From assembly GCA_016211195.1 (NCBI GenBank), contig JACQSS010000033.1, positions 1 to 39,312 of the forward strand: 39,312 nucleotides of DNA. Direction: 5' to 3'. The stretch comes from Candidatus Woesearchaeota archaeon. GTDB taxonomy: Archaea > Nanobdellota > Nanobdellia > Woesearchaeales > JAGVYF01. Positions 650 through 38,422 of the stretch are shown in pieces. The first letter of the stretch is position 1, and each line of letters starts with the position of its first letter. Below the pieces are notes generated by a model. The model was not told where the DNA came from, ran no database searches, and saw only the letters and a list, made by a program, of their open reading frames with translations. A program made the position numbers and the translations under genes.

Positions 650-1267
650 CTACGGTTCTTCCAATTTTTTCAGTAATTTTTTCTTCTCTCTTCCCGGACA
701 ATCCTTGCCCCAGAGGACAAGAATCCTGTTTATCCGGGACCAGTACGGCCGTGGAGCAATATCCATCATCGCCGCTTCTGTCTCATGCGGCGTCTTTGTT
801 TTGACAATGCCCAAGACATTCAGAATGCGGTGGCAGTGGGTATCAACACAAATTGCATCCTTTCCATGGCACTCAGCTAGGACAAGATTCGCAGTCTTCC
901 TCCCGACGCCGGGAATCGTGAGCAGCTCATCCATGGTCAGTGGCACTTTCCCATTGTAATGCTCGATAAGGTGTCGAGCCGCTGCAATGACATTCTTGCT
1001 CTTGGTCCTGTTGTAATTCAGTGACTTTAGAATGGCAAACACATCATCATAGGACGCCCCAGCCAGCTTTTCCAGTGTTCCATATTTCTCAAAGAGCTTT
1101 TCAGCAAGAGGTATGGTTATCTCATCGCGTGACTGGGCACTCATGATAGTAACAATAAGCACTTGCCAGTCATGTAGCCATCCCTCGGCAGCAAGACGCT
1201 TTGTTGACAGTCCGTATTTTTTCTCTGCTTTTGCGAAAATCCGCAGAAAAGATGCACGCTTATCCAT
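650..1267 (-). CDS. nth: Endonuclease III-like DNA glycosylase without Fe-S Cys cluster
   Basis: A base-excision repair glycosylase/AP lyase of the HhH-GPD superfamily, 205 aa from the chosen ATG. Visible signatures are the SAQSRDE segment at about 43-49, the helix-hairpin-helix IPGVGRKTA with catalytic Lys124, and Asp142 in the VDTHCHRI motif. The family normally ends in a C-x6-C-x2-C-x5-C motif binding a 4Fe-4S cluster. Here the protein stops 15 residues after the single Cys190, and the other reverse frames downstream hold no such motif, so this is not a simple frameshift. An in-frame ATG 29 codons upstream exists, but the start at 1267 shares one base with the stop of the upstream peptidase gene (TGATG), as expected for coupled genes. 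The substrate is probably oxidised pyrimidines, by family. Confidence 0.9.
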   Translation of the reverse strand: MDKRASFLRIFAKAEKKYGLSTKRLAAEGWLHDWQVLIVTIMSAQSRDEITIPLAEKLFEKYGTLEKLAGASYDDVFAILKSLNYNRTKSKNVIAAARHLIEHYNGKVPLTMDELLTIPGVGRKTANLVLAECHGKDAICVDTHCHRILNVLGIVKTKTPHETEAAMMDIAPRPYWSRINRILVLWGKDCPGREKKKLLKKLEEP

Positions 1268-2112
1268 CAAAAAAACCTCCGCCCGCCAAGGCAGCATTCT
1301 GCATAGTAATCCCCAAAAAGAGCGTCGCGGCTGAAGGTTGATACCGCAATGCAATTCTTGCCCCCAGTGGCTTCATGCATGCGCCGGGAAGCATGGACAA
1401 AAGATTGAGAATCAAGCATCATCCCAACATGGGTGACGGTGTCCCGCGGCGGTTGCCGGAAGAATACAAGATCCCCTGCGCAGAGCTCTTGACGGGGAAT
1501 GACTGATCCTGCTGGTGGCGTCCTGTCGGCGGCATATAGAAATCTATCTATCCGCGCATACTGCTGCCATGCATCACGAGGAAATGCATCCATCCCATTT
1601 AGACGAATTATCAATTTCATCAAACCAGAACAATCTATGCCTTCAGGAGACACACCACCCCACAGATAAGGGATTGGCCATGTAGAAAGAGTGCTGGCAG
1701 TCTTGGTTATCTGAGAAGGTGATGGTCTCGGGTTGCAGACAAGGCCTTTAATGTCCGTCCATATTGTCTCGTGTGAAGGCAGCCGTACTGCAACGTATGA
1801 TCCTTCAACATCAGTGTACTCCAATTTGGTGCCTGCAAGCACACGACGGTCACTGGACAGCTGGCGCATTCTGTCAGTTACCAGGACAGAGTCATGTGCT
1901 GCATACAGCGGTTCATCTGCTCTATATAGTCTGTACGCGGTTTTTTCAAGATAGCCATAATAGTGTTCATGCTCTGTCACGACAGCGACATAGTCCCCGA
2001 GGTCTTCCGTGAGAGTGACGGTTTCTCCGAGCAACAGTTGGTGTGCCAGGTGAGATGAGCAGGGTGCCTCGTAAAGATTCACAAGACGAGTAGTAATGAC
2101 ACCTTTTTGCAT
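1267..2112 (-). CDS. NlpC/P60 cysteine peptidase with SH3-like N-terminal region
   Basis: A 281-aa protein of the NlpC/P60 (CHAP-like papain-fold) superfamily, closest in motif style to YkfC-type gamma-D-glutamyl-L-diamino acid endopeptidases. Residues about 5-125 look like two bacterial SH3b-type domains. The catalytic domain shows PYLWGGVSPEGIDCSGL with Cys161, THVGMML with His228, and FVHASR with His240, so the Cys-His-His triad is complete. There is no signal peptide or membrane segment, which fits the cytosolic YkfC group that recycles murein peptides in bacteria. Archaea make no murein, so the target is unclear: imported peptides, a pseudomurein-like polymer, or bacterial walls if exported by an unseen route. 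Acquisition from bacteria is the likely origin (inference). It is translationally coupled to the downstream nth gene. Confidence 0.88.
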   Translation of the reverse strand: MQKGVITTRLVNLYEAPCSSHLAHQLLLGETVTLTEDLGDYVAVVTEHEHYYGYLEKTAYRLYRADEPLYAAHDSVLVTDRMRQLSSDRRVLAGTKLEYTDVEGSYVAVRLPSHETIWTDIKGLVCNPRPSPSQITKTASTLSTWPIPYLWGGVSPEGIDCSGLMKLIIRLNGMDAFPRDAWQQYARIDRFLYAADRTPPAGSVIPRQELCAGDLVFFRQPPRDTVTHVGMMLDSQSFVHASRRMHEATGGKNCIAVSTFSRDALFGDYYAECCLGGRRFF

Positions 2113-9565: not shown

Positions 9566-10927
9566 ATGATAGATCCTAAGATTGCATTGGCTTATTATAG
9601 CCGATCAGAGATTCAGGATGCGATTGTCGCTCATGCCCGGGACAAAGAGGCTGTGGGCACTGTTCAGGGGGAGTCGTTCCGGAAAAGGCCAGACGTACTG
9701 CAATATCCTGGAGATATTTTGGAGCTCGCAAGACAAGGTGTGACCAGTTTCCACGCATCTGAAGAATTGTGGTTCAATCCGCTCCTGCTTAAGCCCGGTA
9801 TGAACAAGAAAGAAATCGAAGAGAATAGGAAAGGGTGGGATCTATTATTGGACATTGACTGCCCGGATCTTGAATTTTCACGTGTTGCAGCATTTTTTCT
9901 TGTTGAGGCGCTACGGTACCATGATCTCCAATCATTCAGCATCAAATTCTCAGGAAACCATGGATTCCATATTGGTGTACCGTTTGAAGCATTCCCGGAA
10001 AAAATCGGCAACAGGGAGACAAGGACATTATTCCCTGACGTACCGCGGGCAATTGCCTCTTACCTGCAGGCGTTCATCAGAAAGCATCTCAAGCAGAAGC
10101 TACTGGAAAAATGCAGTATGGCAGAAATCTCAGCACGAGTGAAAAAAGAAGAGCTATTGACTGATGGTGAATTCGACCCGTTCAAAGTATTGTCTATAGA
10201 TACTATCCTGCTCGCATCGCGGCACCTGTACAGAATGCCATATTCCTGCCACGAAAAAAGTGGGCTTGTGTCTATTCCTATTTTATCAGAGGAGATATTG
10301 ACCTTTCCCAAGGAGCTAGCACAACCCGAGAAGGTCATACCAGCAAGGACATTTCTTGCACGGGACTTGACAACACCCTCTGAGGCGAGGCGGCTGGTGC
10401 GCGAGGCATTTGACCATAAGACACCATCAGAAGTGTATACCACCGAACGAAAAACTATCACGTTCACCGACTCACCGGATGCGATTCCGGAACAGCTCTT
10501 CCCCCCGTGCATTAATAATATCCTCAAAGGTCTGGAAGACGGGAAGAAACGCAGCCTCTTTACGCTCATGAATTTTCTGCAGTGCGCAAACTGGCCGCAC
10601 GACAAGATTGATAATCTTGTCCGGGAATGGAACAAGCGCAATCCGGAACCGCTGAAAGAAACAATTGTCGTCGGACAATTGCGATACGCAGCGCAAAAGA
10701 ATGAAAAAATCCTCCCAGCCAATTGCGCAAGGAGAGAACATTATGCCGACCTCGGCATTTGCACGCCGGACTCATTCTGCAGACGCATCAGGAACCCGGT
10801 GCAATATGCGAAAAGAAAAGCGTGGCTTTCTGCAAAAGACAAGGAACAGAAACCAGCCCGGGAAAAGCTCAGCGACGAGCAGAAAGCCATGCGCCGCCAG
10901 TTCCGTGAAAAGCAGAAAAGCACATAG
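9566..10927 (+). CDS. priS: Fused archaeal DNA primase, PriS-like catalytic plus PriL-like Fe-S domain
   Basis: A 453-aa replicative primase. The archaeo-eukaryotic primase domain shows DIDCP (96-100) with the metal-binding Asp pair, SGNHGFHIGVP (129-139) and Asp212 in the SIDTILLASRHLYR segment as probable third carboxylate, followed by PYSCHEKSGL. From about 312 the sequence changes to the C-terminal domain of the large subunit: PPCI (Cys315), LFTLMNFLQC, Cys387, GIC (Cys399) and DSFC (Cys405) followed by RNPVQYA, the four-Cys pattern of the 4Fe-4S domain. A basic tail ends the protein. Archaeal PriS is normally about 330-400 aa and PriL a separate gene. A PriS-PriL fusion is known in Nanoarchaeum equitans, and the present chain fits that type. 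Confidence 0.93.
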   Translation: MIDPKIALAYYSRSEIQDAIVAHARDKEAVGTVQGESFRKRPDVLQYPGDILELARQGVTSFHASEELWFNPLLLKPGMNKKEIEENRKGWDLLLDIDCPDLEFSRVAAFFLVEALRYHDLQSFSIKFSGNHGFHIGVPFEAFPEKIGNRETRTLFPDVPRAIASYLQAFIRKHLKQKLLEKCSMAEISARVKKEELLTDGEFDPFKVLSIDTILLASRHLYRMPYSCHEKSGLVSIPILSEEILTFPKELAQPEKVIPARTFLARDLTTPSEARRLVREAFDHKTPSEVYTTERKTITFTDSPDAIPEQLFPPCINNILKGLEDGKKRSLFTLMNFLQCANWPHDKIDNLVREWNKRNPEPLKETIVVGQLRYAAQKNEKILPANCARREHYADLGICTPDSFCRRIRNPVQYAKRKAWLSAKDKEQKPAREKLSDEQKAMRRQFREKQKST

Positions 10928-27024: not shown

Positions 27025-28260
27025 TTACCTCCACCGGACATGCTTGCGCCGGAGCACTGCATACAGCGCGCCGGACCAGAAAATCTGATACAGGAAGAAC
27101 ATATATGGGAAACCAAGCATACCGACCTTCTTTGACGCGAATTGCTTGCCAGTCAACCGCAGGCCGGCCACCATGAGGAAAAGAGTAAAGAGAAATGCAC
27201 AGAGCCCAATGAGATAAATCCGACCATACTGAAGAATATCAAACTGGAATTCAAGGAGGTGGTCAAAAAAGTTGAAATTGGTATAACTGTAATACCACAA
27301 GTTCTCAATTGTCCGCGAAATGGCCAGATAGGTGGACGCATAGAAAAGCCCTAAGCCAGTCGAGACAAGAAGGTAATTATATGGTGCAAAGTAGCCGAAA
27401 ACCCCCAGTTTGTTATTGAACAGCACGTCACGGTGCTGCAGCAACGTATGAATCGCACCGGAATACCAGCGCCTGCGCTGGACATAGATGCCTTTAAACG
27501 TTTCCGGGCAGATAGTATAGACCTTTGCCTCAAAGCAATTGACGATTGCGTAGCCGGCCTTATGGATGCGATACGCAATCTCGTGGTCTTCGGTGATATT
27601 AGTAATGTCAAATCCTCCGATTTCATCAAGCATGGTTTTTCTGTAGACAGAGAATGGGCCGGGCGTCACGAAGATACAGTCATAGACTGAAAAGAGCTTA
27701 AGGAAGAGTGACAAGCCGATGATGTACTCAATGTCAATGATCTTGTGCAGGATACTTTTCGGGTTTTTGAGTTCTACTGAGACTGTAACAGCTCCAATCG
27801 TCTCCCGGTCAAAATAAGGAAGGGTCTTATGGAAGATGTCTGGCTCAACTGATGAGTCTGCGTCCATGCATGCAACATATGCCCCTTTTGCTATGGAAAT
27901 CCCTTCATTGAGGGAAGCTGCCTTTCCCTTGTTGACTTTCCGGTCAATGAACCGGAAACGGGGGTCTGTGCCTATGGAATTGGTGACAACGGCGCTCGTG
28001 CCATCACGGCTGCCATCATTGACGACAATGAATTCGATATTGGGGTACGTGACATCCTTCAGGGACGCAATGGTCTCTGCGATCTTATGCTCTTCATTAT
28101 ACGCAGGCACAATGACACTCACCAGAGGAAAAGAGTCCAATGGCTTCTTCTTTTCATAGAGCTTGTTGCGGTTAAAAACCATGACTAATGAAATCAGGAC
28201 AACGAAAAATGTTGAAAAAAACCACACAAGATAGACGACTGCGTTATAGAGAACATTCAT
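27025..28260 (-). CDS. Processive GT2-family membrane glycosyltransferase
   Basis: A 411-aa inverting glycosyltransferase of the cellulose/chitin/hyaluronan synthase type. An N-terminal membrane helix (5-28) precedes the GT-A domain: VSVIVPAYNEE (48-58), NDGS (Asp82), MDADSS (Asp133, Asp135), TEDHE (223-227, catalytic-base region) and QRRRW (261-265), the processive-enzyme signature. Three or four C-terminal membrane helices follow. It should polymerise or transfer sugars from a nucleotide donor at the inner face of the membrane; donor and product are unknown. It has its own palindromic TATA box and leads the operon with the thioredoxin-like gene. It lies next to two GT-C-like genes. Confidence 0.92.
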   Translation of the reverse strand: MNVLYNAVVYLVWFFSTFFVVLISLVMVFNRNKLYEKKKPLDSFPLVSVIVPAYNEEHKIAETIASLKDVTYPNIEFIVVNDGSRDGTSAVVTNSIGTDPRFRFIDRKVNKGKAASLNEGISIAKGAYVACMDADSSVEPDIFHKTLPYFDRETIGAVTVSVELKNPKSILHKIIDIEYIIGLSLFLKLFSVYDCIFVTPGPFSVYRKTMLDEIGGFDITNITEDHEIAYRIHKAGYAIVNCFEAKVYTICPETFKGIYVQRRRWYSGAIHTLLQHRDVLFNNKLGVFGYFAPYNYLLVSTGLGLFYASTYLAISRTIENLWYYSYTNFNFFDHLLEFQFDILQYGRIYLIGLCAFLFTLFLMVAGLRLTGKQFASKKVGMLGFPYMFFLYQIFWSGALYAVLRRKHVRWR

Positions 28261-28308: not shown

Positions 28309-29658
28309 CTACATCACTTTCCATATCCTGATGCCCTTGGCGTCATAGACTTTCCTGAATTTTTCCTTGTCCCGGAAGAGGAAAAGAAGTCCCTCATCTT
28401 CCTTGCTCCAGATTGCATGCTGCATGGCCCGGTCTATCCAGATATAGCGGATGTTATTTGTCTCCAGCACGTCCAATGTCCGGCCAAGATGCCGGGAATA
28501 GAAGATACGATTGATATCCTCACCCCGCGGATTGAGTGGGCTAGAAAATGTGCGCCGGCTCCCGAAATATTCTATCCAGAACGCACGGCTGGGAGCTGTG
28601 AGCACAAGACCATCACGAGCTTCCTGCGTGAACCAGAGAGCTGCTTCCTGCATAGGGGCGTCAGGGAATGCATTGCCGATTCTATTCACGTACGAGAGGA
28701 ACGAAAAAAGCAGGCCGCAAATGAGAACAATGATGGTAAATTGTTTCAGCAATGCACTCTCCCAGATACTTTCAAACAATGACAGAAGACCCCATGCAGC
28801 AAGATACGAAAAATAGAAGTTAAGGTACACTGCAATGCTATTGCCCAGCAGGAACCAACTGACAAGTCCCAGTATACCGAGCATATACATCGCAAGGTGT
28901 GCATACTTGTCTTTCCATAAACGATGAAGGCCAAAAAGCAAGAGCAGTCCTGTGAAAATACCAATACCTAATGGTGCGCCCAAGTCAGTAATCACCTTGT
29001 AGACATCTGTCTCGGGCAATGGATCCAGACGGAAAGGATGAATGACCAATGCAAGAATAACCAGCATGAAGAACCATGTATGCTGTTTTGATACCCCTTC
29101 CAGCCACATTTCATACCCCAACAAGAGAAAAACTACTGCAAGGTTGAAGACATTTTGCAGCAGCGCAAGCAGGAAGAAAAAAGAGCTCCAGGGGAACAGT
29201 GATTGCAAATAAAGATAGAAGCCGAGGCAGAGGACAAAAACGCTGAAAGAGGCCTCACTTAATGACACACCAGCAAAGACGCTTATGGGCGACGTTGCCA
29301 GCAACAGCACAGTAAGGAATCGGACACGATAAGGAACACCACGCTCTTTCAGGATAAAGTAAAACAGCATTGACGAGCCGACCATGAGCAAAAAGGGCAG
29401 AATAAACCCGGCAGCACGACCGAATACAGCAACAAATGCTGCCAGCAGGACATGAAACGGTGTCAGGGGCAGGGGCACATGATAGAGGGGGTCTTCCCAA
29501 CCCGTAAAGTACGCTTCTGCAATGCGGAGATGATAGTAAGGCAATTCACCGGGTAGCAGGGCATCGGGAAGGCGGAAAAGGAATGCAAGCAATAGGCAAA
29601 GAATAGTTGTGCTGCACAACCAATACAATGCATCTTTCTCCCGCGGCCACGCAATCAT
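28309..29658 (-). CDS. GT-C-like multi-pass membrane protein (AglB/PMT-like), copy 1
   Basis: A 449-aa protein with about ten membrane helices and a soluble C-terminal end. The first outer loop holds ELPYYHLR (38-45) and EDPLYH (55-60), resembling the acidic first loop of oligosaccharyltransferase STT3/AglB. The C-terminal part reads ALWFTQEARDGLVL then AFWIEYFGSRRTF, where AglB would carry WWDYG; that motif is absent. It may use a lipid-linked sugar donor, with a changed role. The ATG at 29658 overlaps the stop of the upstream paralogue (ATGA) and is preferred over a GTG at 29676. Its paralogue lies directly upstream in the same operon. Confidence 0.78.
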   Translation of the reverse strand: MIAWPREKDALYWLCSTTILCLLLAFLFRLPDALLPGELPYYHLRIAEAYFTGWEDPLYHVPLPLTPFHVLLAAFVAVFGRAAGFILPFLLMVGSSMLFYFILKERGVPYRVRFLTVLLLATSPISVFAGVSLSEASFSVFVLCLGFYLYLQSLFPWSSFFFLLALLQNVFNLAVVFLLLGYEMWLEGVSKQHTWFFMLVILALVIHPFRLDPLPETDVYKVITDLGAPLGIGIFTGLLLLFGLHRLWKDKYAHLAMYMLGILGLVSWFLLGNSIAVYLNFYFSYLAAWGLLSLFESIWESALLKQFTIIVLICGLLFSFLSYVNRIGNAFPDAPMQEAALWFTQEARDGLVLTAPSRAFWIEYFGSRRTFSSPLNPRGEDINRIFYSRHLGRTLDVLETNNIRYIWIDRAMQHAIWSKEDEGLLFLFRDKEKFRKVYDAKGIRIWKVM

Positions 29659-31139
29659 AGTTCCCGCACTCCGCACAGCACTTTATAGACAGTCACATCG
29701 TCCTTCTCATAGACTTTGGAAAAGCATTGTGCATCATGGACAAAAGCAAGGTCACTGACACGGTAGTGCTTTCGTGCAAGCGCATCGAGAACGAGATAGG
29801 TTGCACCATACTTATTCAGCAACTTTACTGCAGTCACTTCTGATGAGGTTTGGAAAATATCCGCAACATCATTGGCGCGTTGATCGATGGCCCCGATCAG
29901 CAGAAATGAGCTGTCCCACACATTAGGGCGTTCGGCGATAGAGGCAATAGGATGACCCAACTCAAGGGCACCCAGCACAGTCTCCTGAGGAGCTGTGTGC
30001 TCCCTCAGCCAGACCAAGGCCTCGACCTGTGCAAGGGAAGGCACATCTGTTTCCTGCCGGGGAAAAATGAACAGAGAAAAGACAAACACCAGCAAGAAAA
30101 CAGCAACCATGGCATTTTTCTGTTCTGCAAATTTTGTCTTGTCGACATAATCCAAAGCCCATGCAAAAAATTGTCCGCACAGCAGAAAGAGAAATGTCCC
30201 TAAGTACAAAAGCCCGACCTTCGGTTCAATAAGTTTCATGGACACCAACGCGAAGAAGAAAAAGGCAAATCCGACAAATAGATACCAGTAGTGCTCTCCC
30301 TTGGAGAACATATATTTGTAAACAACGTATGTCCCGAAGAGAGCAGGAAGGATGCCAATCGCTGCGAATGATGACAGCAGGGAAATTGGTTCAAAATATT
30401 GTTCAAGGATCGTGGTGGGGACATTCTGCCAGATGACATTAAAGCCATGGACGAGGAACGCTTTCTTGAACAGAAGGAATACCACCCAAACCATATACAG
30501 TGAAGAAAAGAGGAACAGTTCGACTTCTGTCTTTTTCGGTAGAAGACCTTCAGCATGACAGAGGAGGCCATAAAACAGCAGCCCTCCGACCAAGAATAAG
30601 GCGCTGGGGTGGATAAATGGATAAAGGATAATCATCACCAGCAGCGTAGGCATCAATTCATGCTCGTCCCGGACATGCAGAAAACAATAGAGGCAGGCGA
30701 GCAGATAGGGCAAGGCCAGCGTATGGGGAGACAATGTTGAAGTCGTCATAACAAGTGAGAGTGGGAATAATCCGGCGACTAGTGCAGTGAACGCTGCAAC
30801 GCCCCGATGCCGGGTCACTTTCTCCAGCAGCAGATAAACGAAAATGGCAACAACTGCGGCAAACACATTGGGGACTATCTTTGCAACCCACCAAAGAGGA
30901 AAGAAACGTGCAAAAAGGGCAAGAAGGTAGGAAAATAAGGGTGAAAAGACGAGTGTTCTGCCGCCGTAACTTAACGGGTCGTCATAGAGCGGCCAGAAAC
31001 GGGCTGCAATCTCATCTACCTGTCTCAGAACCGCGTATCCTTCATATGCAAAAGCAGGTGCCTGTAATGCAAGGTAAAGCCGCACTGCCAAAACAAAGAG
31101 AAAAATGCCTATGAGTGGGTATATTCTTTTCCCCTCCAT
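29655..31139 (-). CDS. GT-C-like multi-pass membrane protein (AglB/PMT-like), copy 2
   Basis: A 494-aa protein with about ten to eleven membrane helices and a soluble end. The first outer loop carries acidic residues (YEGYAVLRQVDEI and PLYDDPLSYGGR). The C-terminal part (ALVWLREHTAPQETVL, then ELGHPIASIAERPNVWDSS) parallels the position of the STT3/AglB catalytic-site loop but lacks WWDYG. The two copies share layout rather than high identity. Together with the GT2 gene they form a sugar-transfer block beside genes for sequon-rich surface proteins. It is first in its operon, with a TATA box 26 nt upstream. Confidence 0.78.
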   Translation of the reverse strand: MEGKRIYPLIGIFLFVLAVRLYLALQAPAFAYEGYAVLRQVDEIAARFWPLYDDPLSYGGRTLVFSPLFSYLLALFARFFPLWWVAKIVPNVFAAVVAIFVYLLLEKVTRHRGVAAFTALVAGLFPLSLVMTTSTLSPHTLALPYLLACLYCFLHVRDEHELMPTLLVMIILYPFIHPSALFLVGGLLFYGLLCHAEGLLPKKTEVELFLFSSLYMVWVVFLLFKKAFLVHGFNVIWQNVPTTILEQYFEPISLLSSFAAIGILPALFGTYVVYKYMFSKGEHYWYLFVGFAFFFFALVSMKLIEPKVGLLYLGTFLFLLCGQFFAWALDYVDKTKFAEQKNAMVAVFLLVFVFSLFIFPRQETDVPSLAQVEALVWLREHTAPQETVLGALELGHPIASIAERPNVWDSSFLLIGAIDQRANDVADIFQTSSEVTAVKLLNKYGATYLVLDALARKHYRVSDLAFVHDAQCFSKVYEKDDVTVYKVLCGVREL

Positions 31140-31866: not shown

Positions 31867-33366
31867 TTATCTCTTCACGGTTTCCTCAATCTGCTTATAG
31901 AGAACGAGAATGTCTTTATAGACGACAGCCTGTTCCTGTTTCTTGAGCGTAGCATAGAGACGTTGCAGGGACGTGTATGTCTTCTTTGCGTCGACGATGT
32001 CTTCCTTTTCAAGGGCAGCATAGACATCCCGTATCAGTGCCTGCACCCGTGTCAGCGCCGCTGATGCTTTCGGTTGAACAAACTGCCGTTTATACGACGA
32101 CCAAAAGTAATAACTGAGCAGGAAAAACAACAATCCGATGATAATGGCAGACACGATGATGTTTGATGTCAGATCACGTTTTGTACCAAGAGCTTCAGTG
32201 ACCGCACCAATGGGCACTTTCTCATGAACCTCTTTTGCTCCTGCACCCGCAAGGAAAGAACAGATGTCAATGGCGCTTTGCGCAAGGGCTTCTCCACGGT
32301 CAAATTGCCCGTCCGCAACAGCACTTTGTGCCTGCTGGATAATCTCTGTCACGATGACACATTCTGGATGTTGCCGTAGTATGGCATAACCCTGCTCCAG
32401 CTTTGAAACCGGTTGTGTTACAGGTACTTGGGGAGTCGCCTGCCCTTCTCGTGATTCTTCTCGTGGGGTGACTGTCACATACATTGTCTGTTTTACTTGG
32501 AATGGGGGGTCTTTGGAGAAAACAAGAACGTGAACTTTATGCTCGCCGGGCTCCGCCGTAGCCGCGTCAATAGTCAGCGTCGCTTTCAGTGACTCACCCG
32601 GATCAAGCTTTTCGAAGAAGCGTGGCTCAACGGTAACGGAAAGCGGATTAGAGGTTACCTCCACAATAACTTCATGCATGGCAACATTTTTGGTGTTTCT
32701 CACATAGACTGGGGCAGTGATGCTCTTGCCTGCCGCAAGAGACTGGGAAGAAGCCATACCGATACCCAACGCTGCGGCGGCAGCAGCCTGCTGCTGCGGT
32801 CCTGCGCCGCCTCCGCCGCCCCCACCGCCACCAGTGACGTCCTCAGATGCTGCCCGCAAAGTACAGGTATCACTGCACCAATAAAGTGTCGTATTACCAT
32901 TGTCACAATCTTCGCCAAGTTCAAGTTCACCGTTTCCACACACTGGAATCAACACATCAAAGTTTAAGCCCGCTGTTACAGGAGTGCTCCCACAACCACC
33001 CTCATCTGTTGCTGTAATGACGACAGCATGAGACCCGACCGCGGACAGTCCAGGTGAAAAGACGACGATACCGGTGCTAGGACCAATAGTGAAAAGATCT
33101 GTATTATCGGCAAAAGTGACGTTTCCCCCATCAGGATCAGTGGCATTGATGTCACAGAAATAGACTTTGCCCGCGGTCACGTTTACCGGACAGCCCAAGG
33201 GAAGCGAGAATGCCGCGGGGTTATCGATACATACAGAAACCGAGCCGCTGCCAGTCGTTGCCCGACCAGTGGTGGCAAAATCAAGCAGCACATAACCCTG
33301 GATGACGAGAAGGACAGCATAAATTGCAAAAAGGACGAATACGACCTCTTTGGGAATATCTTTCAT
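31867..33366 (-). CDS. Multi-domain membrane-anchored surface protein with Gly tract
   Basis: 499 aa. An N-terminal helix (about 7-26) precedes an outer part: ATTGRATTGSGSVSV, a cadherin/He_PIG-like Ig segment (INATDPDGGNVTF to ITATDEGGC), a VCGNGELELGEDCDNGN Cys motif, a run of nine Gly with Ala/Gln stretch (coding bases about 32770-32834), and a NEW3-like beta domain (VYVRNTKNVAMHEVIVEV). A second helix at about residue 410-430 is followed by a cytoplasmic helical tail (DAKKTYTSLQRLYATLKK). Both ends lie inside if both helices span the membrane. The ATG at 33366 is chosen over a GTG at 33372 because the TATA box lies 26 nt before it. It is last in the surface cluster. Confidence 0.82.
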   Translation of the reverse strand: MKDIPKEVVFVLFAIYAVLLVIQGYVLLDFATTGRATTGSGSVSVCIDNPAAFSLPLGCPVNVTAGKVYFCDINATDPDGGNVTFADNTDLFTIGPSTGIVVFSPGLSAVGSHAVVITATDEGGCGSTPVTAGLNFDVLIPVCGNGELELGEDCDNGNTTLYWCSDTCTLRAASEDVTGGGGGGGGGAGPQQQAAAAAALGIGMASSQSLAAGKSITAPVYVRNTKNVAMHEVIVEVTSNPLSVTVEPRFFEKLDPGESLKATLTIDAATAEPGEHKVHVLVFSKDPPFQVKQTMYVTVTPREESREGQATPQVPVTQPVSKLEQGYAILRQHPECVIVTEIIQQAQSAVADGQFDRGEALAQSAIDICSFLAGAGAKEVHEKVPIGAVTEALGTKRDLTSNIIVSAIIIGLLFFLLSYYFWSSYKRQFVQPKASAALTRVQALIRDVYAALEKEDIVDAKKTYTSLQRLYATLKKQEQAVVYKDILVLYKQIEETVKR

Positions 33367-33386
33367 CGCCACTCCAATGATTTTGG

Positions 33387-33442: not shown

Positions 33443-33862
33443 TCACTTGCGCCGGAAATAGACGAAAATGCTTCCTGTATACATACCCACAGGCGTTTCC
33501 TCAGGGACGCGCGCTTCGACATAAAGCCTCGTTTTTTCCCCTTCTTTCAGTTCATAGTCATTTGTGGGAAAGGATACAAATTGTGCTATCTCACCCGTCG
33601 CACTAAATGTGACTTGCGTCGGTTCGGTGAGGGGATTTTTCAGCTGTATCTCCCGTGTACTAGCACCGCCACGTGGCACCTTGCCAAAGTAGACTTTACT
33701 GTTTTCTACGTTGAGCCCGACCGTCTTCCCTTCAACGACTTCTAACTCAGCCCTATATTCAACAACATTATGATAGGTATTCAGCGTATAAGCAACAGCA
33801 GTCAGGCCACTTGCCAAGACGCTTATGGCAACAACAAGTCCAATGACAGTCATCCAATTCAT
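33443..33862 (-). CDS. Small membrane-anchored beta-rich surface protein
   Basis: 139 aa: one N-terminal helix (5-26), then a single outer beta-sandwich-like domain. The pattern VYFGKVPRGGASTREIQLKN, with IPE-type VEARVPEETPVGMYTGSIFV at the end, resembles CARDB/NEW3-type beta domains. The FG-strand pattern recalls the 266-aa and LamG proteins of this cluster. It ends in YFRRK with no second helix. It has its own TATA box and a terminator hairpin downstream, so it forms a separate transcription unit. Its role is unknown; it may be a minor subunit of the surface structure. Confidence 0.75.
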   Translation of the reverse strand: MNWMTVIGLVVAISVLASGLTAVAYTLNTYHNVVEYRAELEVVEGKTVGLNVENSKVYFGKVPRGGASTREIQLKNPLTEPTQVTFSATGEIAQFVSFPTNDYELKEGEKTRLYVEARVPEETPVGMYTGSIFVYFRRK

Positions 33863-33894: not shown

Positions 33895-35046
33895 TTACTT
33901 CTTTCTGCGATAAGCAATCAGGAGAATCACATTTAGGACAAACAAGAGCAGGACAACAGCAACCAGGGAAACAATCACATTCTTGGGAACCTTTGCTGGC
34001 TTCTCTATCTCACGGATGATGAGGTCAGGCCTTCCCTCAAGGACACTGACTGTCCCTTTGTACACAGATTGTTTTCGTCCCGCACTGAGCGTCAGATTGA
34101 CCTGATAGTCACCAAGGGCAAATCCCCGCGTATCAACAAAACCAATAACCCTTTTCGCAGCCCAGGGCTGCAGGAGCTCTGTAGGCATCCTGAATGCTGC
34201 AACTTCCTTATCCTGCTGAATAAGGCTTATGCCTGCAGAGAAATCAATCGGGACGTTCCAGTGGCTTGTCACATCAACAAAGAAAGGATTCACTGAATTA
34301 TTGGTCAGCCAGCGCGTATAGTTCGTGATGACCACTTCCTCCTCCCCGACATAAAAGACCGTTTCCTTTGTCGCAGTTTCTTTGCCATCGTAGGTTATCT
34401 TTGCAATCGCTTTATACTCGCCGGATTTTTTCTTCTTCGTCTGCCACGTTGCACGCAGTTCTGCACTTTGTTCTGAAAAAAGGGACTGGCTATTGGTCTG
34501 CAATGTGGTTATCAACTCATCTCCATAAAAAACAGCGATGCTTCCTTTGACGCTCTTCAGCTGTTTCTCGCCATAATTTGCACCGGGCACGACAAATGTA
34601 ACCGTATCACCAAAGCGGACGTGCTTCGGTTCAACGCGGAAATCACGCATTTCGAGATATGTCCCGGGGTCAAGAACACGCACATAGAGAGGAATTTGCG
34701 CACCTGCAAGCAGTGCGACTTGCCCTCCACTAGCTTGTGTCTGGAAAACCGTAATATCCGCATTGTAGATGCCCGGTGCCGGCCGCTTGGAGGGGAACTG
34801 AAATCGGATAACAAAGGGTGTCCGTTGCCCGGTCAGTTTTACTAACCGGTCATAATGGGCATATTGCGCAAAATCGCCCCCTACTGCAATGGCAGCACTG
34901 TCTTCTCCTCCCGAGAGCACATAATATGTCCTCTCCTCAATGCCGTTTGGCCGATAGGTAAGAGGTGCCAAGCTACTTGCTGTATAGGAGACACCAACTG
35001 CATAAACAGACGGAACAAGTAAAAGAAGTAAAAAAAAAAGACGCAT
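33895..35046 (-). CDS. Type I membrane surface protein, paralogue of the 384-aa gene
   Basis: 383 aa: signal peptide (about 1-16, ending VYA), a long beta-rich outer part, and a C-terminal helix (about 355-378) with a basic RRKK end, so most of it faces outside. It aligns by eye with the 384-aa protein at 37268: the GEYKAIAKITYDG segment against GLYSATATLDYDG, SHWNVPIDF against SAWNREIMG, and GFALGDYQVNLTL against GLAIGDYDATVVL. It starts 3 nt after cassette B and is probably on its transcript. The two paralogues flank the duplicated cassettes. Function unknown; a membrane base or adaptor for the surface structure is possible. Confidence 0.8.
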   Translation of the reverse strand: MRLFFLLLLLVPSVYAVGVSYTASSLAPLTYRPNGIEERTYYVLSGGEDSAAIAVGGDFAQYAHYDRLVKLTGQRTPFVIRFQFPSKRPAPGIYNADITVFQTQASGGQVALLAGAQIPLYVRVLDPGTYLEMRDFRVEPKHVRFGDTVTFVVPGANYGEKQLKSVKGSIAVFYGDELITTLQTNSQSLFSEQSAELRATWQTKKKKSGEYKAIAKITYDGKETATKETVFYVGEEEVVITNYTRWLTNNSVNPFFVDVTSHWNVPIDFSAGISLIQQDKEVAAFRMPTELLQPWAAKRVIGFVDTRGFALGDYQVNLTLSAGRKQSVYKGTVSVLEGRPDLIIREIEKPAKVPKNVIVSLVAVVLLLFVLNVILLIAYRRKK

Positions 35047-35049
35047 ACC

Positions 35050-35850
35050 TCAGCCTTCCGTCTGGAACGCGTCCACTGCGGTGAAGTTCAGCAGGAAGTT
35101 CTTTGCACCAATAGGCGCACTCTTTGAGATGTTAAGATAGACAGTCACGTTAATCTTATCGTAGACATCGTCGGGCTGCAACTTGCTGCAAATCTTCACT
35201 TGCGAGCTACCTGATTGCTGTCCGGGCACTGAATAAATGGATATAGGAATGCCATTGCTCGTGCCAGACTGGTTCGCATGCCGGAAACCTGTTCTGTTCG
35301 GGAAGAATCCAGTATCTGTTGTATCACTGCCACCATACGTGGTTCCATTTTCGCTGACACATGATGGCCGTGTACCACCAAGACTGGCTTTTTCTTCCTG
35401 GCCAAGCCAGAATGCAAAGTCACCACCTGTTCCGAGCATGAGACTAGATGAGGTCGTGTTGATATCCATCAATACAGTCACGTTCACATTCCCGTCATTC
35501 TGGACAGTGATTTTGTTATCTGTGTCATCCTGTGCTGTGCACGATGCACCGGCAAAGGTTGCATTTTCAATGGGACAATTACCCGTTGAATTCAAGACAA
35601 ACGGCTGACCGCTGTTGTTCAGAAATATAGTCCCTGTCCCGAAGCTGATGGTTCCTGCAACACTGATGACGACGTTTCGTGTTACTTCAGCAGAGACTGT
35701 CGCGTTGCCCACTGCCCCAACAAACCCAGTCAGGGGATAATAGATAGTCACGGGCTGTTTAACACTCAGAATCCCGACTAAAGAAACGACGATTGCTACT
35801 CCAATCAGCAGCGCTAAAGTCCTGTTTGAAACGTCTTCATCTTTTCCCAT
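35050..35850 (-). CDS. 266-aa sequon-rich surface protein (cassette B)
   Basis: 266 aa, about 91 percent identical to the protein at 36144 (24 differences counted by eye, none in residues 166-261). The N-terminus NRTLALLIGVAIVVSLVGIL is a signal or anchor helix, then YYPLTGFVGAVGNATVS, then a beta-rich outer part with QNDGNVNVTVLMDIN. It carries 12 N-x-S/T sites and four Cys (92, 104, 164, 221). No C-terminal helix is present. The strand-rich layout recalls donor-strand fibre subunits such as TasA/AbpA, but no family is confirmed. AGGTGA overlapping the stop of the 77-aa gene serves as its ribosome binding site, coupling the two. Confidence 0.8.
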   Translation of the reverse strand: MGKDEDVSNRTLALLIGVAIVVSLVGILSVKQPVTIYYPLTGFVGAVGNATVSAEVTRNVVISVAGTISFGTGTIFLNNSGQPFVLNSTGNCPIENATFAGASCTAQDDTDNKITVQNDGNVNVTVLMDINTTSSSLMLGTGGDFAFWLGQEEKASLGGTRPSCVSENGTTYGGSDTTDTGFFPNRTGFRHANQSGTSNGIPISIYSVPGQQSGSSQVKICSKLQPDDVYDKINVTVYLNISKSAPIGAKNFLLNFTAVDAFQTEG

Positions 35851-35856
35851 GGTTCA

Positions 35857-36090
35857 TCACCTTTTTTCTTCCACAGTCATGGAAACAGCTGTCCCTTTGG
35901 TAACTGGGGGGACGTCTGCATGAGCCGTATAACTGCTATCGAGCTGCAGGGAAACTTTTCCTTGCTGCGGAGCACCGACATAGGTCACTCCACTTGGAGA
36001 CGTTAACACTTTCCACGTTGCAACAACAGAAACAACAACAGCGATGACTAAAATGATAGCAAGTGTACGTTTGCTTGGCATGGACTCCAT
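35857..36090 (-). CDS. 77-aa membrane-anchored small protein (cassette B)
   Basis: 77 aa, 66 of 77 identical to the protein at 36952. KRTLAIILVIAVVVSVVATW is one membrane helix, followed by about 45 outer residues (VTYVGAPQQGKVSLQLDSSY and VEEKR). The helix resembles that of the 266-aa partner, including the RTLA start. GGAGGG lies 6 nt before the ATG. No TATA box is seen after the T-tract at 36120-36138, so expression probably depends on read-through from cassette A. Function unknown; a small partner or minor subunit of the 266-aa protein. Confidence 0.78.
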   Translation of the reverse strand: MESMPSKRTLAIILVIAVVVSVVATWKVLTSPSGVTYVGAPQQGKVSLQLDSSYTAHADVPPVTKGTAVSMTVEEKR

Positions 36091-36119
36091 GGTTTTCCCT
36101 CCGTGATGGAACGATTGAT

Positions 36120-36138
36120 AAAAAAAAGATAAAAAAAA
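36120..36138 (-). terminator. Double T8 tract between cassettes A and B
   Basis: On the reverse strand T8-ATC-T8 begins 5 nt after the stop of the cassette A 266-aa gene. Such tracts terminate archaeal RNA polymerase. Partial termination here would set a ratio between cassette A and cassette B. Confidence 0.55.
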
Positions 36139-36143
36139 GGCAT

Positions 36144-36944
36144 TCAGCCTTCTGTCGTGAATGCGTCTACTGCTGTGAAATTCAACAGGAAGTTCTTTGC
36201 ACCGATAGGCGCACTCTTCGAGATGTTGAGGTAGACGGTCACGTTAATCTTATCGTAGACATCGTCAGGCTGCAGCTTGCTGCAAATCTTCACTTGCGAG
36301 CTACCTGATTGCTGTCCGGGCACTGAGTAAATGGAGATGGGAATGCCGTTGCTCGTGCCAGACTGGTTCGCATGCCGGAAGCCGGTCCTGTTCGGGAAGA
36401 ATCCAGTATCTGTTGTATCACTGCCACCATACGTGGTTCCATTTTCACTCAGGCATGCCGGCCGTGTACCACCAAGGCTGCCTTTTTCTTCCTGACCCAG
36501 CCAGAATGCAAAGTCGCCACTCGTCCCCAACTTTAGGTTAGACTGTGTCGAGTTGATGTCCATCAATACAGTCACGTTCACGTTCCCGTCATTCTGGACA
36601 GTGATTTTATTGTCCGTATCGTCCTGAGCTGTGCATGACACACCGGCAAAAGTTGCATTTGCCAATGGGCAGTTACCCGTTGAATTCAGTATAAACGGCT
36701 GATCGCTGTTGTTCAAAAATATTGTACCTGTTCCGAAACTGATGGTCCCTGCGACACTGATGATGACGTTCCTCGTCACTTCTGCAGAGACTGTTGCATT
36801 GCCAGCGGTGCCGGCAAAACCAGTCAACGGATAATAAATAATATTTGGCTCCTTGACACTCAATATACCAATCAAAGAAACGACTATTGCCACACCAACC
36901 AATAACGCCAATGTTCTATTTGAAATATCTTCATCTTTTCCCAT
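36144..36944 (-). CDS. 266-aa sequon-rich surface protein (cassette A)
   Basis: 266 aa from MGKDED; an in-frame ATG 27 nt earlier lies inside the 77-aa gene and is not conserved with cassette B. Architecture as the cassette B copy: helix 10-30, LTGFAGTAGNATVS at 40-53, ISFGTGTIFLNN at 68-79, QNDGNVNVTVLMD at 117-129, Cys92, Cys104, Cys164, Cys221 and 12 outer N-x-S/T sites. Differences from copy B cluster before residue 166, mostly around 32-47 and 131-141, the likely variable faces. Identity over 166-261 with mainly silent base changes points to strong selection or gene conversion. Confidence 0.82.
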   Translation of the reverse strand: MGKDEDISNRTLALLVGVAIVVSLIGILSVKEPNIIYYPLTGFAGTAGNATVSAEVTRNVIISVAGTISFGTGTIFLNNSDQPFILNSTGNCPLANATFAGVSCTAQDDTDNKITVQNDGNVNVTVLMDINSTQSNLKLGTSGDFAFWLGQEEKGSLGGTRPACLSENGTTYGGSDTTDTGFFPNRTGFRHANQSGTSNGIPISIYSVPGQQSGSSQVKICSKLQPDDVYDKINVTVYLNISKSAPIGAKNFLLNFTAVDAFTTEG

Positions 36945-36951
36945 TAGTACA

Positions 36952-37185
36952 TCACCTTTTTTCCTCCACATCCATAGAAACAGCAGCCCCTCGTGTCACC
37001 GGAGGGACATCTGCATGAGTTGTATAACTGCTATCGAGTTGCAGAGAAACTTTTCCTTGCTGCGGAGCACCGACATAGGTCACGCTACTCGAAGACGTTA
37101 ACACTTTCCACGTCGCAACAACAGAAACAACAACAGCAATGACTAAAATAACCGCCAATGTACGCTTATTCGCCATATCACTCAT
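36952..37185 (-). CDS. 77-aa membrane-anchored small protein (cassette A)
   Basis: 77 aa with one helix (about 8-29: RTLAVILVIAVVVSVVATW) and a short outer end. Eleven positions differ from the cassette B copy; KVSLQLDSSYT is identical. GAGGTC lies 7-8 nt before the ATG. It is first gene of the cassette transcript, with a TATA box about 53 nt upstream and thus a leader of about 25 nt, unlike the leaderless genes elsewhere. Function unknown. Confidence 0.78.
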   Translation of the reverse strand: MSDMANKRTLAVILVIAVVVSVVATWKVLTSSSSVTYVGAPQQGKVSLQLDSSYTTHADVPPVTRGAAVSMDVEEKR

Positions 37186-37232
37186 TCTTTTTGACCTCGA
37201 TGAACATCAACGATGCACAAAAGCAGCAATTG

Positions 37233-37242
37233 TATTTAAATA
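37233..37242 (-). promoter_or_regulatory. TATA box for the duplicated cassettes
   Basis: TATTTAAATA, a perfect 10-bp palindrome centred about 53 nt before the ATG at 37185. Transcription from about 37211 gives a leader that includes the GAGGTC ribosome binding site. Confidence 0.6.
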
Positions 37243-37267
37243 TTTGTTACTACTCTTTTATTACAAA

Positions 37268-38422
37268 CTATCGCTTCAGCAGGCGCACCGCAAGAATCAT
37301 CGCAACGAGCAGGGACACAATGAACACAATAACGAGTGTGATAAATGCCACAATGAGTGTTGTCTGCATATTATTGTCTCGGGTAGCGGTGAATTCCTCT
37401 TTGGTAAGCAAGGTAATCTTCTTTTCTTTCTTGGTTGTGTCCCCGCCATAATGAAGCACGACGGTTGCATCATAATCGCCTATAGCGAGACCTGTTGCAT
37501 CAAAATAGGACAAAACATGTTTCTTTGCATAGGGGTCAAGAGCAAATGAGGCGCTCTTGGATGTTGCAACCTCCTTGCCATTCTTGAAGACGTAGATCTG
37601 TGCAAAGGCCCCCATTATCTCCCGGTTCCATGCACTTTCAATATCGAGTGTGAGCTCATTTATCTTATCTTTCACGAAATACTGGTCAAAATCGTTGATG
37701 AGGATTGCTGCACTGCCGATTTGGAAATCCTTGGTCAGCCGGAATGATGTACCGTCATAATCAAGGGTGGCGGTTGCGCTGTATAAGCCCGGTGCGATAT
37801 CCTTTCTCTTTACCGTCGCGATAAGCTCATTGCTGCCACCATGAGTTAGTGCCCGCTCTTGGGTTGTCTCCTCAAACAGTTGCTTATCTCTATCAAAGAC
37901 ACTGAAATCAGCAGATAGCTGTGAAACATCACGGGTTCCGCGATTGCTCACCTTTGCTTTGAGGGCAATATCCTCTTCATCCATAACGACATCAAAGTTG
38001 GCATCAACATATTTTTCAGGGTAGGGAGCAGTAACATCAACAAAAGAGGAAACACTCAATTGTGCTGTGACATACCCTTCACCTAATCGGACATTGGGAA
38101 CTGTCTCATCAGCAATAATTCTTGCCCTGTTCAAACCAGGTTCCAGCACTTCTGGAAGGGTGATAGTATACCCAATTGTTTTCTGTGCATCATCTTTCGT
38201 GAGACTTATCCGTTCCTTATCGAGAATAATATAGTCATGGAGCTGGCCATCAACAGAAAGGACAACGTCCATGTCCCGTCTTTCGTTGTTGATGATTCTG
38301 ATTTCATAATGCTGGGACAGTCCGGGCTGGAACTGGACTTCACGTTTTGCCGGTGCTATGCCGAGAGAAAATACCATCGGCAAAACAAGCAAAAACATGA
38401 TGAAGGGTGCTATTTTTCTCAT
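37268..38422 (-). CDS. Type I membrane surface protein, paralogue of the 383-aa gene
   Basis: 384 aa: signal peptide (about 1-19, ending VFS), beta-rich outer part with repeated VSNRGTRDVSQLSADFSVF-like Ig segments, and a C-terminal helix (about 352-380) ending RLLKR. It shares the GLYSATATLDYDG and GLAIGDYDATVVLHYGG regions with the 383-aa protein at 33895. Its start overlaps the stop of the LamG protein by 4 nt (ATGA), so the two are translated together. Likely an anchor or adaptor of the same surface system; no catalytic motif is present. Confidence 0.82.
   Translation of the reverse strand: MRKIAPFIMFLLVLPMVFSLGIAPAKREVQFQPGLSQHYEIRIINNERRDMDVVLSVDGQLHDYIILDKERISLTKDDAQKTIGYTITLPEVLEPGLNRARIIADETVPNVRLGEGYVTAQLSVSSFVDVTAPYPEKYVDANFDVVMDEEDIALKAKVSNRGTRDVSQLSADFSVFDRDKQLFEETTQERALTHGGSNELIATVKRKDIAPGLYSATATLDYDGTSFRLTKDFQIGSAAILINDFDQYFVKDKINELTLDIESAWNREIMGAFAQIYVFKNGKEVATSKSASFALDPYAKKHVLSYFDATGLAIGDYDATVVLHYGGDTTKKEKKITLLTKEEFTATRDNNMQTTLIVAFITLVIVFIVSLLVAMILAVRLLKR

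Follow-up and report, generated by a model that had tools for sequence, protein, structure and literature searches.

Why would a Woesearchaeota archaeon carry two complete copies, side by side, of a pair of genes for a 77-aa and a 266-aa membrane protein, and what does the pair do? The window we analyzed is the whole stretch of 39,312 nucleotides, one entire contig of a draft genome of 1.11 Mb in 76 contigs. Life on other cells is thought to be the rule among DPANN archaea, and their surface and host-contact molecules are largely unknown. An earlier note on this DNA, made by reading the letters, proposed a surface fibre or coat built from the two proteins, possibly by donor-strand assembly. 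We propose instead that the pair is the doubled two-gene core of a conserved surface operon of Woesearchaeota-type DPANN archaea, working like the WxL/WxLIP system, and we would give this reading about an even chance. The features it draws on are collected in Table 1.

Table 1. Features of the surface cluster, in the order in which they lie on the minus strand
Feature	Positions	Strand	Remarks
Modular protein, C-terminal 297 aa	38419..39312	-	Cut by the contig end; 20 N-x-S/T sites
WxLIP-like anchor a (P0005)	37268..38422	-	Signal peptide; Ig-like domains 20-107, 123-235 and 240-340; C-terminal TM helix
77-aa protein, copy 1 (P0004)	36952..37185	-	N-terminal TM helix; strand motifs QQGKVSLQL and C-terminal GAAVSMDV
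266-aa protein, copy 1 (P0003)	36144..36944	-	TM helix, TG motif, predicted beta-sandwich ectodomain
77-aa protein, copy 2 (P0002)	35857..36090	-	66/77 identical to copy 1
266-aa protein, copy 2 (P0001)	35050..35850	-	242/266 identical to copy 1
WxLIP-like anchor b (P0006)	33895..35046	-	Same family as P0005
139-aa protein	33443..33862	-	N-terminal TM and Ig/ASH-like domain; also follows the second anchor at other loci
501-aa protein	31867..33372	-	TM segments 5-34 and 400-425; weak NEW3 match; recurs at the cluster end

The duplication itself is beyond dispute. Read from high to low coordinates the minus strand gives 77-aa, 266-aa, 77-aa, 266-aa, as two tandem units of 1042 and 1041 bp with 53 bp between them, and recomputing the coordinates, lengths and identities reproduces the full two-gene duplication described before. 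The base changes between the 266-aa copies at residues 166-261 had been called mostly silent, which understates the case: there are 20 of them, all are silent, and not one amino acid differs. Purifying selection acts on both gene pairs, with dN/dS at 0.06 for the 266-aa genes and 0.19 for the 77-aa genes, which means that each copy is being maintained as a working protein. Selection is probably not the only force, since dS in the 266-aa pair is 1.18 over codons 1-165 versus 0.39 over codons 166-266 (Fisher p = 0.00016), which suggests that gene conversion homogenised the 3' part of the gene as well. Within that part lies an insert of about 48 residues (about 166-213), mostly predicted to be disordered, which is absent from relatives and the same in both copies. 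A TATA-box-like stretch, TTTAAATA at 37220-37245 (minus strand), precedes the first 77-aa gene by about 50 bases, and T-rich tracts in the 53 bp separating the units might be a terminator.

Is the pair kept together in related genomes? The earlier note had staked its reading on this, and the answer is yes. We compared gene order across 43 distinct gene contexts, counting only the eligible loci in each denominator. The 77-aa gene sits directly upstream of its larger neighbour (about 215-266 aa) at 37 of 41 eligible loci, and a gene for a triple-Ig protein follows the larger gene at 35 of 39. The operon is conserved, and its order is constant: modular protein, triple-Ig protein a, 77-aa protein, about 215-aa protein (one or two copies), triple-Ig protein b, a protein of about 140 aa and one of about 500-660 aa. 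Some loci are incomplete, partly from contig ends; the window has every gene, with the modular one cut. The idea of a stand-alone two-gene system must be given up, since the pair stands at the center of a larger operon that also encodes two WxLIP-like anchors and a large modular protein. At other loci it is mostly the larger gene alone that is doubled (L031, L034, L035 and L045, for example). Among the loci read only the window has both genes doubled as one unit; in L050 another pair lies further downstream. The duplication in the window is a lineage-specific doubling of the two middle genes of a conserved Woesearchaeota operon.

How far the operon reaches depends on how it is searched for. 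With the single protein as query, homologues of the 266-aa protein appear in 26 of 99 relatives from the same order; the family profile finds matches in 54 of these 99, and in 85 of 194 genomes sampled across the phylum, belonging to the same order and to other orders of the class. A contig search with P0003 as sole query found no match and one with a family sub-alignment succeeded; the named records carrying the family are almost all MAGs of Woesearchaeota or Nanoarchaeota. The profile finds no member in the closest relatives, of the same genus and the same family, so the cluster is either dispensable in the host's lineage or missing from those drafts. One relative, G060, has 14 matches to the beta-domain family (contigs C12, C21, C26 and C27; L031:18740-19901), including versions of about 520-550 aa that match the N-terminal module at one terminus and the beta-domain at the opposite one.

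The genes around the pair are what point to WxL. The last 110 or so residues of the window's modular protein match the ectodomain of the 266-aa protein (E 9e-12), and the large modular proteins at other loci, which form open frames of up to 4477 aa, end in it likewise; we considered whether these large proteins might lack the N-terminal strand and be acceptors only, and the matches on them start at varying positions. Among the matches listed, from 53 genomes, 79 of the 96 triple-Ig genes are immediately preceded, on the same strand, by a gene for a beta-domain protein. In 42 cases this is a large modular protein and in 37 a TM protein of about 215 aa, which suggests a separate membrane partner for each beta-domain protein. 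We consider such one-to-one pairing quite likely. In the window P0005 is likely to be the partner of the large modular protein and P0006 that of the 266-aa protein.

What are these partners? The Pfam family WxLIP_HBD (DUF3324) matches 7 of 24 members of the triple-Ig family. It passes its curated cut-off in two relatives, both times at triple-Ig family genes, and is weak in 24 other genomes. DUF916 (WxLIP_PGBD) matches 2 of the 24 members, at E 0.04 or worse. The AlphaFold model of P0005 is confident (pLDDT 91) and shows three Ig-like domains followed by a TM helix at the C-terminus, and a Foldseek search with it places Enterococcus faecium WxLIP among the top matches, both bound to a long WxL protein (9i25, E 7e-11) and free (9i1y, E 1.7e-10). 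Eukaryotic axonemal Ig arrays score above WxLIP, and the WxLIP sequence match is a weak one within an Ig-like fold common to many proteins. We therefore regard the triple-Ig proteins as probable remote homologues of WxLIP, with a predicted WxLIP-like fold.

Bacterial WxL clusters contain a small WxL protein, a large WxL protein and a WxLIP (PMC9772566, PMC10599100). The WxL/WxLIP (DUF916-DUF3324) clusters of Firmicutes and the archaeal cluster agree on a large modular protein with a beta-domain at its end, on a small single-domain relative in one or two copies, and on an Ig-like protein with a C-terminal TM helix. The archaeal cluster has a large and a small protein with a common C-terminal domain beside a partner, as a WxL cluster does, and its anchors match WxLIP by fold and, mostly weakly, by Pfam. 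The two differ in several ways. The WxL domain (PF13731) gives no match over its cut-off in the 99 relatives, none in the host's own genome and none in 26 members of the 266-aa family, and the 50 best Foldseek matches to the 266-aa model include no WxL structure. WxLIP has two Ig domains whereas the archaeal anchors have three, and the archaeal cluster has two anchors, one for each beta-domain gene. Its host is an archaeon, its small protein retains a TM helix, and it has the 77-aa donor-like protein in addition. With WxLIP-like anchors and the gene set present but no WxL domain detected, the cluster is laid out like WxL, with a probable WxLIP homologue, and is at most a candidate member of the system. 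We found no report of a WxL system in archaea in the searchable literature, mostly papers open without subscription, so an earlier description may exist.

The 266-aa protein belongs to a family whose typical member has about 210 aa: an N-terminal helix (SNKTLAxLLVxAIVVSLGGTLISL), a TG motif, a strand motif and a beta-rich domain. In the window the N-terminal strand is GNATVSAEV (residues 48-56). The glycine of the TG motif (G42) is present in 26 of 26 members and the threonine (T41) in 22; Cys221 is conserved in 25 of the 26, and cysteine counts are nearly always even. Each 266-aa protein has four cysteines, as reported before, and the 12 N-x-S/T sites then counted are joined by a thirteenth in a script count, N9, which precedes the TM helix and leaves 12 outside. 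A gene for STT3/AglB is present, so N-glycosylation is feasible. Beyond the cluster a family 2 glycosyltransferase (27025-28260, minus strand) and two multi-TM proteins without a Pfam match (28309-29676 and 29655-31139, minus strand) could serve glycosylation. Pfam and NCBIfam scans of the family return chance matches only.

The strongest rival to our reading makes the 266-aa protein the subunit of a donor-strand filament of the TasA, AbpA, CanA or Sulfolobus thread kind, capped or started by the 77-aa protein and tipped with the modular protein as adhesin. The Foldseek search on an AlphaFold model that the earlier note proposed does lead in this direction, though weakly: the best PDB matches of the 266-aa model are CanA cannula subunits, with a Foldseek probability of 0.99 for the top match, and with the donor-strand subunits Caf1, FimA and CfaB ranked lower down. 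However, the model is of low confidence (pLDDT 62), and the CanA match has an E of 5.8e-3 and a poor rmsd. CanA, from the cannulae of Pyrodictium, is an archaeal beta-sandwich (jellyroll) surface protein, as ours is predicted to be, but it is extracellular and tube-forming, shows no sequence similarity, and its match is of low significance. No camelysin or TasA family of Pfam or NCBIfam matches the 26 members, and a PDB sequence search with the broad family alignment found nothing useful, neither TasA/camelysin nor any known fibre. Among viral proteins Foldseek finds nothing that reaches E 0.001, which leaves a viral origin unsupported.

In favor of a filament, archaea are known to build donor-strand filaments that have a cap protein: the Sulfolobus thread subunit Saci_0406 is an N-glycosylated donor-strand protein, and its neighbour Saci_0405 is a putative cap proposed to lack an acceptor site (PMC9715654). 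The threads show no detectable homology to the archaeal proteins here, are released after cleavage by signal peptidase I, and have no WxLIP-like partner described in the literature covered. Fibre subunits must be released. The 266-aa protein has no obvious cleavage site just after its TM helix, inspection finds no K/R-G/A cleavage motif before the helix, and the class III signal peptide of type IV pilins and archaellins (TIGR02537) matches 1 of 26 members, at E 0.093 only. With one or two copies of the gene at a locus, and each product anchored in the membrane, a platform fits better than a long polymer. We think a filament unlikely. What survives of the proposed two-subunit fibre or coat is a membrane-anchored, N-x-S/T-rich pair predicted to face outward; no result shows a filament being formed.

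One argument for strand exchange of some kind comes from the 77-aa protein. A profile-profile comparison (hhalign) of its family with the N-terminus of the 266-aa family finds a homologous helix and following strand (97.7%, E 2e-12), so the membrane helix noticed as common to both proteins reflects real homology. A DUF1616 match of P0002 (E 0.18) covers the TM helix region only and we dismiss it. We built a weight matrix from the strand of the 266-aa family and scored it on the tails of the 77-aa proteins and on shuffled tails. The best score averages 6.06 versus -0.76 +/- 0.47 when shuffled, and the second 2.47 versus -3.19 +/- 0.38. Most family members carry the strand motif twice; the window's own copies have a degenerate second motif, which the matrix misses. 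From the helix and strand homology and the motif matches, we read the 77-aa protein as the N-terminal module of the 266-aa protein, a TM helix and a putative strand, with the strand doubled and no globular domain.

A comparison with TasA/TapA and AbpA is instructive. TapA and TasA have an N-terminal motif in common, and by donating this strand TapA starts the filaments of TasA (PMC10151520). In the archaeal cluster, too, a predicted beta-sandwich subunit carries an N-terminal strand whose motif recurs in a partner. TapA, however, has a complete Ig domain, which the 77-aa family lacks, having two motifs instead, and the archaeal proteins have no sequence match to the camelysin/TasA families. 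AlphaFold predicts a hairpin strand of WxLIP completing the bacterial WxL sandwich (PMC10599100). The shared motif, the TapA and thread precedents and the fold matches to CanA and chaperone-usher subunits favor strand complementation and do not prove it. The donor-strand idea of the earlier note thus gains the doubled motif and some weak fold matches to donor-strand fibres, and fails to gain a sequence match to TasA or camelysin. Donation of strands by the 77-aa protein is plausible, and we put it slightly below an even chance. Our literature search, mostly of papers open without subscription, found none that treats DPANN archaea and donor strands together.

In our WxL-like reading of the operon, P0005 and P0006 would be membrane-anchored Ig-like partners, each for the beta-domain protein encoded directly upstream. 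With the beta-domains held at the membrane by these anchors, the result would be a short stalk or a glycosylated platform on the surface. Beta-strands to complete the sandwich of the 266-aa protein, of the large protein or of both would most likely come from the 77-aa protein, which might start the assembly or form its base, in the way TapA serves TasA. Doubling the genes locally would increase dosage or let two variants of the subunits coexist. An outward location on the surface is very likely on prediction, and the membrane topology is a prediction too; physical pairing and an adhesive or envelope role we infer. A more ambitious version makes the whole a strand-complementation system, in which the 77-aa protein is donor only, the 266-aa protein donor and acceptor, giant adhesins carry the acceptor domains and the Ig partners are WxLIP homologues. 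We offer that version tentatively and think it more probably wrong than right. If true, it would unite the Gram-positive WxL system and the archaeal donor-strand fibres under one principle. The WxL-like layout matters in its own right: a widespread operon couples giant proteins rich in glycosylation sites with dedicated membrane partners, and for proteins outside any curated family it provides named gene families and a model of assembly that can be tested.

It could be argued instead that the large glycoproteins are a coat, an S-layer or its anchoring set, which the Ig-like, 77-aa and 266-aa proteins fasten to the membrane with no exchange of strands. The many N-x-S/T sites, the large modular proteins and the TM anchors are all compatible with this. 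One relative of P0005 matches the NCBIfam model of a "putative S-layer protein" with PACE-CTERM (E 2e-4), and the nearest prior work had predicted Ig-like membrane proteins near archaeal S-layer genes (PMC5898192, PMC6393860). This leaves unexplained why each beta-domain gene has a WxLIP-like partner of its own and why the 77-aa family has a doubled strand motif, and presence in 54 of 99 same-order genomes is low for an essential coat. We consider an S-layer improbable, somewhat more so than a filament. Membership of the predicted secretion or membrane-remodelling complex of the arCOG01314 neighbourhood, whose members include membrane proteins of Ig-like type as well as predicted S-layer proteins, with a DPANN-specific secreted protein reported beside them (PMC5898192, PMC6393860), is very improbable, with no MoxR ATPase, vWA or flavodoxin-like gene among the window genes searched.

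Two other genes of the window deserve mention. One (1267-2112, minus strand) encodes an NlpC/P60 and bacterial SH3 domain protein (PF00877, E 1.5e-17) of the cell-wall-hydrolase type, which in an archaeon may have a bacterium as its target. The other (9566-10927, plus strand) encodes a protein matching both the small and the large subunits of archaeal DNA primase, a fused primase.
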